Origin: Candidatus Cloacimonadota bacterium
GTDB taxonomy: Bacteria > Cloacimonadota > Cloacimonadia > Cloacimonadales > TCS61
Direction of reading: 5' to 3'
Assembly (NCBI GenBank): GCA_021736135.1
Contig: JAIPGO010000043.1
Coordinates: 1-33,089, forward strand
DNA length: 33,089 nucleotides
Shown here: in pieces, positions 18,541-33,089 of the stretch
How the letters are laid out: every line of letters starts with the position of its first letter
Position numbering within the stretch: the stretch's first letter is position 1
The notes under the pieces: model-generated
The model's database searches: none
Seen by the model: the letters and a program-made list of their open reading frames with translations, nothing else
What the model was told of the DNA's origin: nothing
Position numbers and translations under genes: made by a program

Positions 18541-21500
18541 TTAATCCGTGTTTTGATGATTTTCATTACTGATAACACCTTTTCGGAAATCAGGAATTCT
18601 TTGAGGTATTTCCACCGGGAAAGTATTGATCAATCCCACAGAATATTGCTGGATCAGGGAAGCATCATAGGCTTCAATATTGCTGTTTCCGTCAACATCA
18701 GCACGCAGCTGGCGCCATATCTGCCAAGGTAAAGGCGCAGCGGGAGGATTGAAGCCAACAAAATACTGCAGAACCAGAGCGGCATCGAAAGCCTCGACGG
18801 CACCATTATCATCAATATCTCCATAAGCTATCTCACCACCCACAAAGAGGTTTACCGGAATCAGCATTGTCTGCTGCTGGGGATCATTGCTGTTCAAGAG
18901 CAGGTTACAGAGATAGTCTCCAATTTCCAGATCTTCAGTATCAACCGTTATGGTAACCGTTGTGTTACCGCTTATTGGAATATTACCGGATGTCTGGCTC
19001 AGTTCCAGCCAGTCGACCACGCGTAAAATCCTGATTGCCAGATCATTTTCCACATAATTGCTGTTATAAACCACCTGCAGCGCATCGCTGGCATTGGCAT
19101 TCTGAATTCCGATCGTACTGGAATTAGTGGTTCCACTCACATTATCATACTGCAGCAGCATTTCTCCGCTGGCATAAATAATCATTTCAAAAGTATAATT
19201 ACCGTTGTAAGTTCCCGGATAGTGCTGAACGTTATCAAACATTACCACCAGGTGATCGTCAAAGTTCTGGTAATAAACTTCACCTTCCCCACTGGCACCG
19301 ATAGCGGGATACAAATCATCCCAGAACCCCATAATTGCTGGTCGCGGTGCATCTGCATCTGGTATTGCGGCATTACTCCAGGCATTATTATCATCTCCAA
19401 ATCCCAGCCAGCCATTAGCGTTTACAATAAATTCCTCATAATCAACACCGTAAAAATTGAATGTAAAACCGATCGGAAATGGTCCCTCTCCCAGATCATT
19501 ATGTGTCATTATAATCTGGGTTCCGGTCTGTGAGATATCAATCCAGTTAAAATCCGGTCCACCTGCTTCATTACTATCCAGCCACTGGTAACCATAATTA
19601 TCAGGACCACCGCTCTCGCGTGAAATCACGTAATTCCTGCTCAGACTCCATTGGAGATCACTCCCTCCAACATTGGCGATCTGCAACTGGCTGCTTCCTG
19701 TAGCCTGGGGTAAAAGATTGAAGGAAAATTCATCCTCATTCAGGAGCATCTGTGCCGGTTGTGGAATATTAATAGGTGGGAAAACAATGTAATCAATCCA
19801 GGCGCAGTCGCTACCACTGCTAACGCTAGAATCCTTCTGGTAAATCCAACTGAAAGTATGTATGCCGGTACTTACGGCAGTGCTGAACTGCGTCCAGTCT
19901 ACTGAACCACACCAGGCTCCCATCTGTGTGCCGTCTATATAAAATCTTAGATAGTCATATCCTGATTCTGAAGATACTTTATAATAGAAGCTAATCTGCT
20001 CCGGGCTTAAGACATTTAATTCCACTTCCAGACCTGCAGACTGGTTGTGAGTAATGGTTTCCGATTGTGCACAATAAGCTCCTTCAAAACTGTTCCCGGC
20101 AATATTCCAGCCGTAGTTACCGGTCATTGACCATTCATAGGAATTAAAACCGCCACTTTCGAAGTCTTCAAGACATAATCCAACAGTTAGAGCAAAGGAC
20201 GTTGTAATACTGAAACCAAATTCAGCATTGCATTCCAGATCAAAGGCTATCACATGTCCGATTTCAGCAGTTTCACTCACTTCCAAGCGCCAGGTAAATA
20301 CAGCGCTGTCATACGCATTAATTTCCGGTATAGTCTCAGCATTCTGCAAGATAGTACAATAAGGGTCAGATTCCTGAAGCAGAGATTCTACGTTATACAG
20401 TTCAGATCCACCCTCATTCACTATTTCCACGTTCAAGCTGGCAACTTCTCCAGGATCAAGACGCCCGTTATTATTGGCGTCACCTGTAATAGTCAGATTT
20501 CCCATCAACGGAACCGGAGCATATCCGGTTAGATTTATCGTACTTTCCCAGCTACCCTGATCGCTATTGACAAGTGCTGTTAAGTAGAAATCATGTCCAT
20601 CAGGAATATCCGAGTCAACACTGAAACTGAAGGCGTCTGCAAGCTGAATAATGCTATTGGCGTTGACCAGTGCAGCAGTTTCCAGGTTATCTATAAGCGT
20701 AATAAATACATCATTGCAGCTTAAGCTGATGCTCAAGCCGGTTGCATTCTCATTTCCGAAATTTTCGATCTGTATGCTTAGATTTACTGTTTCATTATAT
20801 TCAATAATATCATCATCAGGTGTGGATACTGTTACATCATTAACAACGGCATAAGCACCTTCCGGCGGTATCACAAGCATATTAGTTTCATATCGGTAAT
20901 GATCTTGTTTAGTCACAACCAGGTGAACCTGAGTTAAAGGATCCTGCGGTTCGATCTGAAGCTGCTGTGGAATACCGGAACCTTCTGCTGTTGCAAGTAT
21001 TTCACCATTTACGCTCAGACAGATGAAGCTGCCATTCTCGGCAGTTATTTCCACATATGTCATACCACTTAAAAGCACGTCATCATGGCTCACGGCAATA
21101 GTCTGTGGTATTTCTGTAAACACGGTCATAAAGGCATCTCCATGATGATGAAACAGATAGTAGGTCACTTCTTTATTATTGGTATTATAGGGCCAGTTAC
21201 TAGCCTGCAGATACCATTTCCCGCTGCTGTTGGCAAAACAGGGAAGTATAGAATTTTCAGCATCAGCTCCGTGTCCGGGATCGAAATCAGGCCACATATA
21301 ATCATAAGTTCCCCATACGTAAACGTCATTCACAAAGGAATAAGACACTTCAGTCGCTGCGTTTATACCTAGCGCGCCGCGTGCCAGACGGTGAAATGCT
21401 TCCGCAAAACTTTCACCGCTCCAGTTGAATTTCCCAGTCAGGCAGTTAGTAGAGAAAATAAATGATAGATCTTCATTATCAAGTCCCCCCAGATTACCAT

Positions 21501-22968
21501 TACCATAATCCGGTTCTCCCCAGCCGGTTTCACCTCCATGATCGCGATGCTGCAGCATAAAGCAGCCGTTATTAATGTCATTATTAATAGATGCGGCAGT
21601 AGCATTCCAATTCGGCACGACCGCAGGTGATGCGCCCAGGTATCCCAGTCCATTCGCTCCAAAATAATTTACTACCGTGCTTGTATTTGTTGCCGAAGAC
21701 CAGCTTGTTCCCGGTGTGCCGGAATAGATCGCATATTCCCTTACCGGCGTTTTATCCAGAACATTAGCCCAGAAGCCACGGACTACTTCCGTGCAAAGTA
21801 TGAACCAGCGTTCTGTCTGCCAGCCTCCAGCTACTACGGGATTCTGATAAAATCCGGTATTAGTCGGTGGATTTCGTTCATAATCCAGAAATTTATGGAT
21901 CATCAGTTCGAGTTCAGCCTCATTTCTGGCAGTTATACGAGCCGTAGACAGGTCAGGCAGGTCATTCCCGGTAATATCCGCAAACAGGTTATCCGAAATA
22001 CAGTAATTATCCCAGGTGGGTGAATTGATCGTGTTCGAGGCATTTGTTCCGTAATCTCCCAGAAAAAGCACGGCTACCGGAGGGATATCCCAGGTATTAT
22101 AGGCATTATTGATATAATTTTCTATCTGTGTATTACTGCTGCCGGTTTCTGTCAGTGTAACCACACCGGTTCTAATGCCTTGCTGTGCCCGAAATATTTT
22201 AATGGAATCTGCCCAGGTAGTGAAAGCTTCACTCGTAGGCGTTATGATGAGATATTCGTAATCTGGCGTGCGCATCCCGCCTGTCCGATTGCTGTAATCT
22301 ATTTCCGGTAATGATGCCCAGTTTAACAGATTACTGCGCAAGACAGGATCCCACCAGCGACTACGTAAACGCTCCTCACCAATATAACCGTCTCCTCCGG
22401 AAAAGCTGACGCTAACTTTTATATCCCGATAATAATGCAGCTCCCTGGTTTGGGGATTATAACGGAAAGGATGCACGCTCACAATGATATAATCTACGCC
22501 TCTTATCACGTCAGGTTCCGAGACAATGATCATCTCTTCAGGGTATAAAGCATTATTTTCATATATCTTACTATAATTGTATTCCAGATAATCTTCTGTT
22601 TCCCAGGGTATGCGGGGAGCTGGTGCCAGATCTATTCCCTCAAAAATCTCTTCCTTTAGCCAGGTATATGTCACTTCTGCTTTCGCACCTCTCGGCATGG
22701 CGATCATCCGGCTTATGGCAGGCAGATCAGGATTTCCCTCATTATTAGGCAGAAAATCAGCATTTATGACAATCTCTTTCTTTATAACGCCATTGATTTC
22801 AATATCCTCTAAAGAAAATTCACTTGCTGAATAAGTATATTCCAGTCCTTGACTGCTCTCCGATATTATCTGCAAACCCTCGGTATATTCGTTATCCTGC
22901 CAGTTGTAACTAACCGCACCCAGTATCGAGATTGTTAAAATCAAAAAAAGAAAACCTGCAACTTTCAT
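18541..22968 (-). CDS. Secreted gingipain-family (C25) cysteine peptidase with C-terminal dockerin-like domain
   Basis: The 1475 residues begin with a signal peptide (about 1-19) and a C25-type propeptide region. The catalytic domain spans about 235-610, with His477 in RDHGGETGWG and Cys509 in STNCLTGKF as the dyad. Behind it come CARDB/Ig-like beta segments (about 620-920), a jelly-roll or MAM-like module starting LCLEDFESGGF, and a module with a GGPD...FPIGFTFNFYG pattern. The last 93 residues hold two EF-hand-like dockerin repeats: GDIDDNGAVEAFDAALVLQY (from 1383) and ADVDGNSNIEAYDASLIQQY (from 1423). No T9SS sorting domain is seen. GGAGGG lies six bases before the ATG. Confidence 0.88.
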   Translation of the reverse strand: MKVAGFLFLILTISILGAVSYNWQDNEYTEGLQIISESSQGLEYTYSASEFSLEDIEINGVIKKEIVINADFLPNNEGNPDLPAISRMIAMPRGAKAEVTYTWLKEEIFEGIDLAPAPRIPWETEDYLEYNYSKIYENNALYPEEMIIVSEPDVIRGVDYIIVSVHPFRYNPQTRELHYYRDIKVSVSFSGGDGYIGEERLRSRWWDPVLRSNLLNWASLPEIDYSNRTGGMRTPDYEYLIITPTSEAFTTWADSIKIFRAQQGIRTGVVTLTETGSSNTQIENYINNAYNTWDIPPVAVLFLGDYGTNASNTINSPTWDNYCISDNLFADITGNDLPDLSTARITARNEAELELMIHKFLDYERNPPTNTGFYQNPVVAGGWQTERWFILCTEVVRGFWANVLDKTPVREYAIYSGTPGTSWSSATNTSTVVNYFGANGLGYLGASPAVVPNWNATAASINNDINNGCFMLQHRDHGGETGWGEPDYGNGNLGGLDNEDLSFIFSTNCLTGKFNWSGESFAEAFHRLARGALGINAATEVSYSFVNDVYVWGTYDYMWPDFDPGHGADAENSILPCFANSSGKWYLQASNWPYNTNNKEVTYYLFHHHGDAFMTVFTEIPQTIAVSHDDVLLSGMTYVEITAENGSFICLSVNGEILATAEGSGIPQQLQIEPQDPLTQVHLVVTKQDHYRYETNMLVIPPEGAYAVVNDVTVSTPDDDIIEYNETVNLSIQIENFGNENATGLSISLSCNDVFITLIDNLETAALVNANSIIQLADAFSFSVDSDIPDGHDFYLTALVNSDQGSWESTINLTGYAPVPLMGNLTITGDANNNGRLDPGEVASLNVEIVNEGGSELYNVESLLQESDPYCTILQNAETIPEINAYDSAVFTWRLEVSETAEIGHVIAFDLECNAEFGFSITTSFALTVGLCLEDFESGGFNSYEWSMTGNYGWNIAGNSFEGAYCAQSETITHNQSAGLEVELNVLSPEQISFYYKVSSESGYDYLRFYIDGTQMGAWCGSVDWTQFSTAVSTGIHTFSWIYQKDSSVSSGSDCAWIDYIVFPPINIPQPAQMLLNEDEFSFNLLPQATGSSQLQIANVGGSDLQWSLSRNYVISRESGGPDNYGYQWLDSNEAGGPDFNWIDISQTGTQIIMTHNDLGEGPFPIGFTFNFYGVDYEEFIVNANGWLGFGDDNNAWSNAAIPDADAPRPAIMGFWDDLYPAIGASGEGEVYYQNFDDHLVVMFDNVQHYPGTYNGNYTFEMIIYASGEMLLQYDNVSGTTNSSTIGIQNANASDALQVVYNSNYVENDLAIRILRVVDWLELSQTSGNIPISGNTTVTITVDTEDLEIGDYLCNLLLNSNDPQQQTMLIPVNLFVGGEIAYGDIDDNGAVEAFDAALVLQYFVGFNPPAAPLPWQIWRQLRADVDGNSNIEAYDASLIQQYSVGLINTFPVEIPQRIPDFRKGVISNENHQNTD

Positions 22969-22993
22969 AAAATTCCCTCCATTTTATAAGGAA

Positions 22994-23013
22994 GCCGGAG
23001 ATTATACTCCGGC
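22994..23013. other. Stem-loop between the two C25 peptidase genes
   Basis: GCCGGAG (22994-23000), loop ATTATA and CTCCGGC (23007-23013) form a perfect 7-bp hairpin in the 58-base gap. On the minus strand it is not followed by a T-run, so it is more likely an mRNA-stability or attenuation hairpin than a full terminator. The two peptidase genes are probably co-transcribed. Confidence 0.55.
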
Positions 23014-23026
23014 ATCCCCAATATTT

Positions 23027-26000
23027 TTATTTCATAAGCATCATTTTTCGAGTTTCAGAATTGTCTCCTGCCGTCAATCTGTAAAGATATATTCCGCTAC
23101 TCACAGAATTTCCTCTGTCATCATTCCCCTGCCAGATTGCCTGATGCGATCCCGCCGACTGGGTCTCTGCAACCAGAATCTTCACTCTTTGACCACGCAT
23201 ATTGAAAATTTCCAGCTTAACATCAGCACTGCTGCCCAGTTCATAAGATAGCGTTGTCACCGGATTAAAGGGATTGGGATAATTGCCCTTAAGCATAATT
23301 ACATCCTCTATTTCACCCTCGGCTGCCGATGGCTGAGTAACTACCATTAATACAGGAATGCGTGTTTCCAGACGACTGTCCGTGATCACTATTTCGCACT
23401 CGTATTCTCCGGCTTCCAGTCCTGCCGGGTTTAAAGTTACTTCTATGAATTGCGTTTCTCCGTATATCAACTCACCCTCAGTTATATTCAGGCTTATCCA
23501 GCTCAAGGGATAGGAAAGTTCGAAAAATCCGCTCACTTCGTGGGGAGCACTTCCGTAACCGTCACCGGTCATCACATAGTCACAGGTAATGTAACCCGTA
23601 TACGCATCATCTATACTTACGGAAACTGTTGCCATAGCGCTCTGCCCTTCATGCAAATAGCCATAACCGGATGGCGTGGCTCCATGCCAGGTTATTGTTA
23701 CGCCGTCACCGCTTGTGATATCCGGTTCCATTAAACCTCCACTGCCTCCCAGCATGCCTCCGGCATTTTCAATTATCACTCCTTCCGGGAACGTGATGCT
23801 TACATCAGAAATCCACTCACCATCAGTGCTGAGGTTATTGGCTGTGATCTGCCAGTCGTATTCTCCACCCGGCTCAAAATGATGATGTGAGCATTCCACA
23901 TAACTATCCGTCAGGTCTCTGGTGCCGGCATCAGATTCGGTTCGGATGCTGTAGCTAACCGGATCAGGCAGCCAGTTACTGATGCTGAATAGCGTTTGAT
24001 ATAATTGCATACTATCTATTTCAGCAGCTATTGTTACGGGATCAATCCAAAGACCCGGAGGAGCATAAGCTACCAGGTTCAGCTCTTCCTCCCAGTTACC
24101 AGCCGTACTCGTGAAATCCAGATCTATCCGGATCGGATGACCGAACGGTATATCTTCCGCTACTTCAAAATTAATCAAACCGGGAAATTCCACCAGACTC
24201 TGTGCCGGTATCGTTCCCAGATCAAATTCTGTAATCTCAATGGTTACATACTGATCTATCAGTCCCAGGCTTAAAGTTGTTTCCAGAGCATCATCCGTGC
24301 CCAGGTTTTCCACGTTAATATCAATACTTACAGTATCGCCGCCGTTTATAGTATCATCATCACCGCTGGTTACAGTAAAAGCATCAAGAATGAGGTAAGG
24401 TCCGTCATTCGGGATCACCTGCACCTGAGCAATGATCGGGATCCGGTTCTGATGCGTAATGGTGAGAGTTGCCAGACACGGTTCATCAAAAGCGTTATAT
24501 TCCAGAATCAATATTCCGCTGTCATCAACCAGCCCCACACCTTTTATCTCTCCTGCATAAGTTAAAGCAACATAGCTATATGGTTCTGCAATTATTTCCA
24601 TCGATTCCAGCCCTAAGAGCAGTTCTTCCGGATATTCTGCAACATTAACTTCCGCTTCACTAAAATATACACTTAAAGAGGGATCACCCATCAGCGAATA
24701 TATTTCCCAGTAATAATTGACCATTCCACTGCCACCTTCCACAACTGCCAGGTTTCCTGCCATAATATAGGCAAAACCTACAGTGTACCACATATCAAAA
24801 TCTTCACCGTTTTCATGCCACATACCGTCATAGGCTCCGGGTCCCGTCTCTTCATAAGTCGGATTCAATACGACGTTTCCGGCACCTACTCCCCACCAGT
24901 AATCTTCATCCCAGTATGTGGAATTGGTACCACCTATATAGCCTATGGCGCCTTTATCTTCCGCTCTTAGCCAGGCTTCTCCAAAACAGGTGCTTACTTC
25001 AAATTTATTGGTCAAACAGCAGTTCCCTACTGCGAAACAGTATTCTTCTGAATTCTGCAGACTGTTAATATTATTGATCGTAAAACTGGGATTTGCCCAG
25101 CTATCCTGCGATCCATGGGCAGTATAATTGATATAGGAAACGCCGTCCGAAACGCTCTGTACTATATTTGCCGCATTACTGCCCGATTGAGGATATAAAT
25201 AAGTATAAGAAGTGAGATCATGCTCCTCATTGAAATACATGGACGTCCCGTAATTGATCTGACCGTTAGCCCATATCGGACCAAAGTTACCATCCATACC
25301 GGCGATCATAACCACTTCATTAAGATAGGAAGGATCGCTCATCGAGTAGGTTTCATACATCAGGGTTTTATCGATCTGAGGCTGTAATTGTGCTACATTT
25401 TGAGCGCTGAATCTGCCGTAATATATTTCCGGCATATAATCCGGGCCTTCCAGACGCACGTAATGCAGATCAGTTACATGGCTGCCCTCAGTTCCGCTGT
25501 AGGCAGGTATTTGTTGCGTATCGCCCACAAATAATATAAAACTGGGAGCTGGATCGTCGGTGGTTGCTTCTTCCCATAAACCCTCGATAAATCCAGCTAT
25601 CTGCGTCGTTGTGCTTCCTATCTCATCAGTATAAGCTGATATTACATCAAATCCCTGGGTAGTTTTCCAATCTATGAATTCCTGCAATTGGTCTTCAAAC
25701 ATCGGATCGGAAATGATCACATATTTGATGGGATAGCGGGTGAGATCTTCCCGTGTCTGGAAACGTTCATAGTTCAATATTTTTTCTTCATACATCTTCT
25801 CAAAAACCGGTGACCAGGTGCGCTGACGCAGGTTATCCGTAGCTGCCATATCTCCACCGGTAAAATGTATGCTGATTTCTATCTCATTACTTACCATAAG
25901 CTCATTACTCACCGGATTATATCTCACAGGCTCGATGTTAACCACAAAAATCCGCATTCCTCTTAAAATTCCCAGTTCCTCTACACTGACAAGTTCATTT

Positions 26001-26458
26001 TCATTAAAAGCATTCAAGCTGTAAATATGGGAGCTATATACAAATTCCACTTCCTTTGCCGGAGTACTTTTAGCCAGTGGTGGCTGGGCTGGAAATATGG
26101 GAAATGTAATATGATAGTCATCAAGATTGATCACACTTTCGGTACCGGCTATTGCGTTTACAGTTACAACCGCTTCCAGAGGTACGCTGATGATCCGGCG
26201 CAACCGCGGCAACCGCGGTGAACCAAAATTATTTGTAAATGTGAAACCTGAAACCTGCAGATCGGTAAATTCTCCTGCCGGGGTACTGATTTCAATATAA
26301 TTAATCCTTCCCAGGTTGACACTTAGCTCCACGCCGTTGTCACCGCTATTATTCAATACAATTCCCGTCTCATTAGAAGTTAAACCAATTACCCCCTGTT
26401 CTGCACATAACATCCCCGCTATCAGCAGAACCAGCAACACAATCAAACTCTTTCTCAT
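23027..26458 (-). CDS. Secreted gingipain-family (C25) cysteine peptidase with T9SS type A sorting domain
   Basis: The 1143-residue protein has a signal peptide (about 1-19), a C25 propeptide region, and a catalytic domain (about 240-600) with His448 in TAHGSQDSW and Cys481 (the second Cys of NCCLTNKF) as the probable dyad, aligning with the HGGE and NCLTGKF motifs of its downstream neighbour. Beta-sandwich modules follow. The end is a T9SS type A sorting domain, starting NYPNPFNPVTTLSYEL and ending KMMLMK, which directs export across the outer membrane. The frame is open from a TTG at 26461, but ATG 26458 has AAGGAG six bases upstream. It shares order and domain plan with the downstream peptidase gene, suggesting an old tandem duplication. 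Confidence 0.9.
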   Translation of the reverse strand: MRKSLIVLLVLLIAGMLCAEQGVIGLTSNETGIVLNNSGDNGVELSVNLGRINYIEISTPAGEFTDLQVSGFTFTNNFGSPRLPRLRRIISVPLEAVVTVNAIAGTESVINLDDYHITFPIFPAQPPLAKSTPAKEVEFVYSSHIYSLNAFNENELVSVEELGILRGMRIFVVNIEPVRYNPVSNELMVSNEIEISIHFTGGDMAATDNLRQRTWSPVFEKMYEEKILNYERFQTREDLTRYPIKYVIISDPMFEDQLQEFIDWKTTQGFDVISAYTDEIGSTTTQIAGFIEGLWEEATTDDPAPSFILFVGDTQQIPAYSGTEGSHVTDLHYVRLEGPDYMPEIYYGRFSAQNVAQLQPQIDKTLMYETYSMSDPSYLNEVVMIAGMDGNFGPIWANGQINYGTSMYFNEEHDLTSYTYLYPQSGSNAANIVQSVSDGVSYINYTAHGSQDSWANPSFTINNINSLQNSEEYCFAVGNCCLTNKFEVSTCFGEAWLRAEDKGAIGYIGGTNSTYWDEDYWWGVGAGNVVLNPTYEETGPGAYDGMWHENGEDFDMWYTVGFAYIMAGNLAVVEGGSGMVNYYWEIYSLMGDPSLSVYFSEAEVNVAEYPEELLLGLESMEIIAEPYSYVALTYAGEIKGVGLVDDSGILILEYNAFDEPCLATLTITHQNRIPIIAQVQVIPNDGPYLILDAFTVTSGDDDTINGGDTVSIDINVENLGTDDALETTLSLGLIDQYVTIEITEFDLGTIPAQSLVEFPGLINFEVAEDIPFGHPIRIDLDFTSTAGNWEEELNLVAYAPPGLWIDPVTIAAEIDSMQLYQTLFSISNWLPDPVSYSIRTESDAGTRDLTDSYVECSHHHFEPGGEYDWQITANNLSTDGEWISDVSITFPEGVIIENAGGMLGGSGGLMEPDITSGDGVTITWHGATPSGYGYLHEGQSAMATVSVSIDDAYTGYITCDYVMTGDGYGSAPHEVSGFFELSYPLSWISLNITEGELIYGETQFIEVTLNPAGLEAGEYECEIVITDSRLETRIPVLMVVTQPSAAEGEIEDVIMLKGNYPNPFNPVTTLSYELGSSADVKLEIFNMRGQRVKILVAETQSAGSHQAIWQGNDDRGNSVSSGIYLYRLTAGDNSETRKMMLMK

Positions 26459-26715
26459 CAAAATCTCCTTTATCTAATTCTCTTAAATATTCTTTGACAC
26501 TATATATTTACGCAATTTTTATACCAGCAGTAGATCTGGAAAGGAAATTCTTTACTGGAACCTGATTCGAATAATACATCAGGTCTATAAACCCATATCT
26601 GAGTTAACCTGATCCAGGGCATGCCAGCCCTGATATTTTTGGATTTACGACTCTTAAAACTTTTGAACATCTGTAATAATCTATTGCTTCAAGTTGCAAG
26701 TACTGATCTGTGGGA

Positions 26716-32620: not shown

Positions 32621-32662
32621 CTTTTAACAGTGTGATTTTCACGGTGGAATGATTTCCCGCTA

Positions 32663-32773
32663 AGAACAAGAGTTTTGAACGGTACTCCGGGCAAGACTTT
32701 TGGGCGACTAATATTATCTAAATCAGCACTTGATATAATTTTATCAGACAAAGTCGTTCAAAAGTCTTGTTCT
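32663..32773. repeat. 111-bp inverted-repeat (MITE-like) element
   Basis: The ends AGAACAAGAGTTTTGAACG (32663-32681) and 32755-32773 are reverse complements with one mismatch in 19. The interior adds GACTTT (32695-32700) against AAAGTC (32750-32755). No coding capacity is present, and no clear target-site duplication flanks it. Confidence 0.75.
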
Positions 32774-32880
32774 GATTACAATCCAAAACCGGCATCCACC
32801 CGTTTTATTATACATGATTTGGAGTAACTTCTTATTTTATAAAGTAATATTTAGGATTTATCTCTTATAATTCCCGGTAC

Positions 32881-33049
32881 GGGATAAATTTGTATAGCGT
32901 AAGGTTGCACAGAAGGTGCTACCTTATGTAAAAACTGAGCCCCTCCCCCGCCCCATCGGCGCTGCGCGCCGATGGGGTGGGGGTATATGCATCATTCATA
33001 AGGTAGTCTCGGAGTACCGAGCCAACCTTACGCTATACGAATATATCCC
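32881..33049. repeat. 169-bp cloverleaf-like palindromic element
   Basis: The outer stem is 16 bp perfect (32892-32907 with 33023-33038), extended by GGGATA/TATCCC at the ends (32881-32886, 33044-33049). An inner stem pairs TACCTTATG (32920-32928) with CATAAGGTA (32997-33005). Side hairpins are GCAC-AGAAG-GTGC (32907-32919) and CTCGG-AGTA-CCGAG (33008-33021). The centre is an 18-bp GC-rich stem with one G-T pair (32945-32962 with 32966-32983) and loop TGC. Alternatively each arm folds alone as TAAGGT...ACCTTA (32900-32926 and 32999-33030). Confidence 0.85.
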
Positions 33050-33089
33050 TTTCAGGGAAATGAAACTTCACAAAAGACGAGATATTTAA

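Follow-up and report, generated by a model that had tools for sequence, protein, structure and literature searches.

TnGBS transposons target sigmaA promoters, where they insert 15-17 bp upstream of the -35 region (Guerillot 2014, PMC3942029). ISLre2 and some ISKra4 elements share this targeting, most of them in one orientation and with one of their ends adjoining the promoter, and the transposases of all three are of the Mutator type, p-MULT 3 and 4 (PMC3942029). The IS4 family is recognized by its YREK motif, by a D(60-110)D(100-150)E spacing, and by target duplications of 7-13 bp according to the subgroup; Figure 3 of the review from which this description is taken shows that some IS4 elements are highly specific in their target arms, and promoters go unmentioned in its main text (De Palmenaer 2008, PMC2266710). 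In the open-licence literature, we found no report of promoter-aimed insertion by IS4-type elements. Two further kinds of sequence are relevant here, namely the GTAG REPs, recognizable by a hairpin with GTAG at its base (PMC3733652), and bacterial MITEs such as MITEAba12 (PMC6382973), which are short, non-coding, present in many copies flanked by target duplications, and which share their terminal repeats with an insertion sequence.

The locus described here lies at the end of a window (the whole stretch of DNA analysed, 33,089 nucleotides) that constitutes contig 35 of a Candidatus Cloacimonadota genome of 4.14 Mb in 148 contigs, where an initial annotation had noticed a palindrome. We consider it very likely that this palindrome is the interior of a MITE, here called family A, moved in trans by a promoter-targeting DDE transposase of the IS4 type (YREK).

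The palindrome and the element that contains it

The features of the locus, with the evidence for each, are the following.

32655..32788, no strand: family C palindrome (a dispersed repeat), its right arm broken by element A (comparison with other C copies)
32789..33089, plus strand: family A MITE, right end (about 20 nt more) missing (alignment with 39 other copies)
32789..32802, plus strand: left terminal inverted repeat CCGGCATCCACCCG, consensus CTGGCATCCCCCCG (genome-wide consensus matches)
32871..33059, no strand: palindromic payload with outer stem, two arms and central hairpin (inverted repeats, folding, alignment A1 of 40 copies)
32898..32928, minus strand: left arm, a REP-like unit whose minus strand reads CATAAGGTAG-CACCTTCTGTG-CAACCTTACG (alignment A1)
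32945..32983, no strand: central GC-rich hairpin, 18 bp, loop TGC (inverted repeats, covariation, loop counts)
32997..33032, plus strand: right arm, REP-like unit CATAAGGTAG-TCTCGGAGTACCGAGC-CAACCTTACG (alignment A1)

The long outer stem, the side hairpins and the 18-bp GC-rich central hairpin that the initial annotation had drawn are all in place. The outer arms (32871-32907 and 33023-33059) are 37 nt each and 86% complementary, the central hairpin is 94% complementary, and the arm hairpins occupy 32900-32926 on the left and begin at 32997 on the right. Folded as DNA, the 195-nt stretch reaches -65.3 kcal/mol, far beyond the -24.8 +/- 3.5 of dinucleotide shuffles (none of 200 as low), with a z-score of -11.6 on one strand and -12.8 on the other, and the RNA fold is similar. 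Both of the alternative folds proposed earlier can be drawn from the window copy, in which the cloverleaf with the long stem beats the two-arm fold by about 13 kcal/mol as DNA and about 11 as RNA; that switching between the two is functional is only a possibility.

At least 40 near full-length copies of the palindrome, approximately 84-100% identical, were found dispersed in its own genome when homologous copies were sought, a number that is a lower bound as 40 of 76 candidates were scored. The palindrome is therefore neither single-copy nor free of covariation. Six pairs in the helices that the two folds share show changes on both sides, and none of 500 shuffles scored as high; two-sided changes in the two-arm fold amount to eight cells, which come from a single pair in one subfamily, and those in the long-stem fold to one. 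The earlier claim that structure rather than sequence is kept thus holds for the central hairpin, where four of the six pairs lie in the inner stem; for the arms the evidence is thin. The tip of the hairpin is found in both orientations, with loop TGC in 26 of 40 family A copies and its reverse complement GCA in seven, which suggests inversion of the palindrome or template switching; by either route, paired changes may arise as well, and mimic covariation.

Conservation among the copies exceeds the palindrome: about 80 nt before it they share the left end CTGGCATCCCCCCGTTTTATTATTCA and about 50 nt beyond it the right end AAATTTCGGGGGGATG, so that the palindrome sits inside terminal inverted repeats that start, in the window, at 32789. 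Family A has the features of a non-autonomous transposon of about 310-320 bp: its 14-bp ends CTGGCATCCCCCCG are matched by CGGGGGGATGCCAG on the other side, and it is short and noncoding, no ORF of at least 100 aa being found after 32620. Most of the 39 other aligned copies show the right end ...TTTCGGGGGGATG, which the window copy lacks because the contig stops at 33089, and for this reason neither duplication nor promoter can be read at that copy. When up to one mismatch is allowed, the left-end consensus matches 87 sites in the genome, as opposed to none for the reversed control; many of them come from other element families with the same ends and unrelated interiors, several of which are also palindromic. 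Among 125 genomes of the phylum, no family A copy was found outside its own genome, and distant arm-like matches were seen in only one.

Immediately upstream, other copies of family C run on ...CCAAAACTCTTGGC at the point at which, in the window copy, the left end of element A begins. The family C palindrome (CAAGAGTTTTGAACGGTACTCCGGGCAAGACTTTTG...) is found elsewhere inside CTGGCATCC-type ends and also inside different ends, GAGGCTGTGCGAAAA...TTCTCGCACAGCCTC, meaning that one payload occurs in two transposon types. A hairpin motif, GGTACTCCG (CGG-TACT-CCG), recurs in the otherwise unrelated payloads of families A, C, G and F and of locus L103. At another contig end of the same genome (L083, contig C92), an element end is followed by the start of a reading frame, MSQLTGNQIRKKMKLYGISFAMIREEVADLT..., cut by the end of the contig. 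Elsewhere in the window (18541-26461) are two large genes for peptidases of family C25 (gingipain-like), of which one has a type IX secretion domain, Por_Secre_tail, and the other a dockerin domain.

Target duplications and position relative to promoters

Many copies are bordered, directly outside their ends, by direct repeats such as ATTTCAATTAAATTG and TAAAACAGAGTGATAATC, with 11-18 matched bases. These target-site duplications, as expected of a MITE, are clear in 22 copies, where the commonest length is 15, and a sizeable minority of family A copies carry no clear duplication. In 14 of the 22, TTGAC (or TTGCC) follows 3 bp past the duplication, while in the other eight the spacing differs. 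It is the right end of family A that faces TTGACA, with a gene coming next, and landing occurs about 18 bases upstream of the hexamer. TTGAC was found 16-25 nt from 45 of 136 ends, with 1.6 expected, and, in the set from relatives, at the same distance from 20 of 36 ends, with 0.3 expected. TTGACA is also the commonest at that distance of all 4096 hexamers (53 of 172 ends, against a mean of 0.66 for its other permutations). A gene start accompanied by a Shine-Dalgarno sequence lies within 160 nt of 53 of 86 promoter-side ends vs 10 of 118 others, and the main downstream ORF is directed away from the family A element in 30 of the 32 copies that have one. Other element families with the same ends share this TTGACA target as well.

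Because the left copy of the duplication precedes the element and not a TTGACA, and because the 3-bp spacer varies, the hexamer would be part of the target rather than of the element. As a motif search yielded no clear -10 consensus downstream of TTGACA, the word promoter refers here to this hexamer together with the gene start that follows. Sequence comparison shows that the copies have defined ends, target duplications, and an oriented position with respect to both TTGACA and the downstream gene.

Like TnGBS, ISLre2 and ISKra4, family A inserts in a given orientation, with one end on the promoter side, upstream of a -35 box and at a fixed distance from it. Unlike in that group, however, the distance between duplication and TTGACA is a constant 3 bp with duplications of 9-17 bp, and most of the elements found here are non-autonomous and rich in palindromes. 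Short, non-coding, multicopy, flanked by target duplications and bearing terminal repeats shared with an insertion sequence that is found intact in a related genome, family A resembles bacterial MITEs such as MITEAba12 (PMC6382973), and differs from bacterial MITEs in general by its anchoring to the -35 box and its REP-like payload.

The transposase and its relationships

Exact left ends were present in six of the 79 genomes searched, including the genome of the window, and three of these six are from a single genus within the same family; in the genome collection, such ends were seen in Candidatus Cloacimonadota Tobar13.5m-G52 and Candidatus Stygibacter frigidus. In that same-family genus, an autonomous element of about 1.5 kb (L106) has CTGGCATCCCCCCG-type ends and encodes a DDE transposase of 465 aa; the duplication ATTTTGTAATAA lies on both of its sides, followed by ATA-TTGACA. 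In the genome of the window, an 80-aa C-terminal transposase fragment, located where a contig ends, adjoins an end of this type, and TTGACA is again present. Since the assembled genome holds this fragment and no intact transposase, we infer the partner in this host. Another candidate partner, the DDE_Tnp_1 insertion sequence at C3:32254, was rejected, as it has ends of its own, TTTCCGAGTTA, and is nested in a degraded family A copy. The locus concerned (L112, C3:30754-34338) carries this insertion sequence, which contains a stop codon, inside the degraded copy.

Homologues of the transposase are found in 32 of 125 genomes of the phylum. Five clean autonomous elements from different genera (L113, L147, L148, L153 and L154) show a duplication, then 3 bp, then TTGAC; their duplications measure 9, 10, 11, 12 and 17 bp, and their end sequences differ. 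In three further elements (L145, L142 and L143), the boundaries need adjusting, and in a fourth (L146) there is no TTGACA. A scan of the genome collection for the right end plus TTGACA returned 13 loci, 11 of them in Cloacimonadota; at the Bacteroidaceae and Calditrichaeota loci there is no element, and these matches look like chance. Plasmid sequences searched by tblastn with the transposase gave no match.

In the Pfam search, the transposase matched PF01609 (E = 2e-10) and no other model, that of Mutator included. The Y(2)R(3)E(6)K motif of IS4 is present in 15 of 15 homologues, residues D121, D208 and E350 are invariant in alignment A2 with 86 and 141 residues between them, within the IS4 spacing, and a profile match to the Tn5 transposase was obtained (E = 4e-4). 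These features, on sequence grounds, are the reason why we call the transposase IS4-like and set it apart from the Mutator-related enzymes of TnGBS, ISLre2 and ISKra4. With the IS4 family it shares the YREK motif, the D-D-E spacing, and a single transposase ORF. Its scores, however, are below the cut-offs of all NCBIfam IS4 models (the best, NF033590, at 43 bits vs 160), so that we do not assign it to a named IS4 subgroup. The duplications, at 9-17 bp for the autonomous elements and 11-18 for family A, also appear longer and more variable than the 7-13 bp of the IS4 subgroups listed in the review cited above (PMC2266710).

Origin of the payload, alternative readings and significance

Both arms of the payload have the form CATAAGGTAG-hairpin-CAACCTTACG, with AAGGTAG directly 5' of the hairpin, and form an inverted pair, as expected of REP sequences; the arm pattern has 56 matches in the genome. 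The resemblance to REPs and REPINs extends to the two inverted units with GTAG 5' of the hairpin, to the structured spacer between them, and to the presence of RAYT-like genes in the genome, where nine Y1_Tnp matches were found, eight of them above the cut-off. It is therefore conceivable that the palindrome is itself the mobile unit, a REP or REPIN moved by a RAYT (Y1) transposase, and that the outer repeats are incidental. At four loci (L199, L200, L201 and L204, on contigs C123, C5, C147 and C106, respectively), Y1_Tnp genes lie near palindromes. At L201, five copies of CACAGACGTCCCCGTCTGTG surround the Y1 gene, preceded by GTAG in four cases and by GCAG in one, and REPs such as those flanking Y1 genes recur within or beside other elements with family A-type ends (L069 and the H-type elements). 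Furthermore, a distant genome from another family of the class (G122) carries lone TAAGGTAG...CAACCTTA arms at L218, L220, L222 and L224, with neither the central hairpin nor the family A terminal repeats. Against this explanation, family A sequence is absent from the surroundings of all nine Y1 loci, and none of these offers a cognate RAYT with family A arms; in the loci fetched from the window's own genome, each of the 55 distinct arms lies within 330 nt of a terminal repeat, and it is at the outer ends, not at the palindrome, that the duplications and the position relative to the promoter are measured. Unlike a REPIN with its RAYT, the payload is bounded by transposon ends and target duplications. 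We thus disfavour a RAYT as the mover of family A, and regard this account as unlikely. The payload is instead probably a captured REP/REPIN-like module, made of two inverted GGTAG-plus-hairpin units around a GC-rich hairpin, that rides along with the transposon, its REP origin being put forward as a proposal because we found no RAYT accompanied by family A arms.

Selection on the fold itself, as in a structured RNA, a regulatory leader or a terminator for which repetition would be secondary, could account for the great stability and for the covariation reported above. The element, however, lies upstream of the -35 box, so that the downstream gene's transcript does not contain it; the window has no match above the gathering cut-off in Rfam 15, no terminator-like site was found, and the loop inversion offers another source of paired changes. 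This explanation appears to us quite improbable, and the same observations leave unsupported the earlier suggestions of a recombination or replication site or of a discrete structured RNA. The mobile palindromic unit also suggested there is borne out by the terminal inverted repeats, the target duplications, the dispersed copies, and the matching transposase. Lastly, the position next to promoters might reflect survival rather than choice of target, if insertion were widespread and only intergenic copies in promoter regions persisted. A survival bias toward intergenic sites is general for bacterial transposons, and genes do lie downstream of these elements, but neither the prevailing spacing of exactly 3 bp between duplication and TTGAC, seen in family A and in five autonomous elements of different genera alike, nor the fixed orientation is readily explained in this way, and we hold this to be very unlikely, the least probable of the three accounts.

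We therefore return to the IS4-type transposase as the mover of family A, a reading for which sequence comparison offers a related genome that carries an autonomous element with these ends, and five autonomous elements that follow the same insertion rule. The transposase would recognize CTGGCATCCCCCCG-type ends, as the shared ends suggest, and would move family A in trans, inserting it next to promoters with the right end toward the promoter. The cut nearer to the promoter would fall most often 3 bp upstream of the TTGACA (-35) hexamer, and the other cut 9-17 bp further out, leaving a duplication of varying length. To find this position, the enzyme may sense the -35 box, or RNA polymerase or a sigma factor bound there. 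The REP/REPIN-like payload would be carried along and, by a weak inference, might possibly act as a structure that insulates transcription upstream of the promoter.

On a broader scale, we lean, with some reserve, toward the view that a Cloacimonadota-wide group of IS4-type (YREK) elements evolved -35-anchored insertion (3 bp upstream, with variable duplication) independently of the Mutator-type group, perhaps via promoter-bound RNA polymerase or sigma factor, and that in some hosts it carries REP/REPIN-like palindromes to promoters. Promoter-anchored insertion has so far been reported, as far as we could find, for one bacterial transposase superfamily. If this view is true, a second and apparently independent case would exist in the IS4/Tn5 superfamily, the mechanism of which is known from Tn5 structures, and how a transposase finds a promoter would become a testable question. 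A variable duplication combined with one constant cut position is, moreover, unusual for a cut-and-paste transposase, and elements of this kind may provide a route for REP-like palindromes to spread to the promoters of genes.
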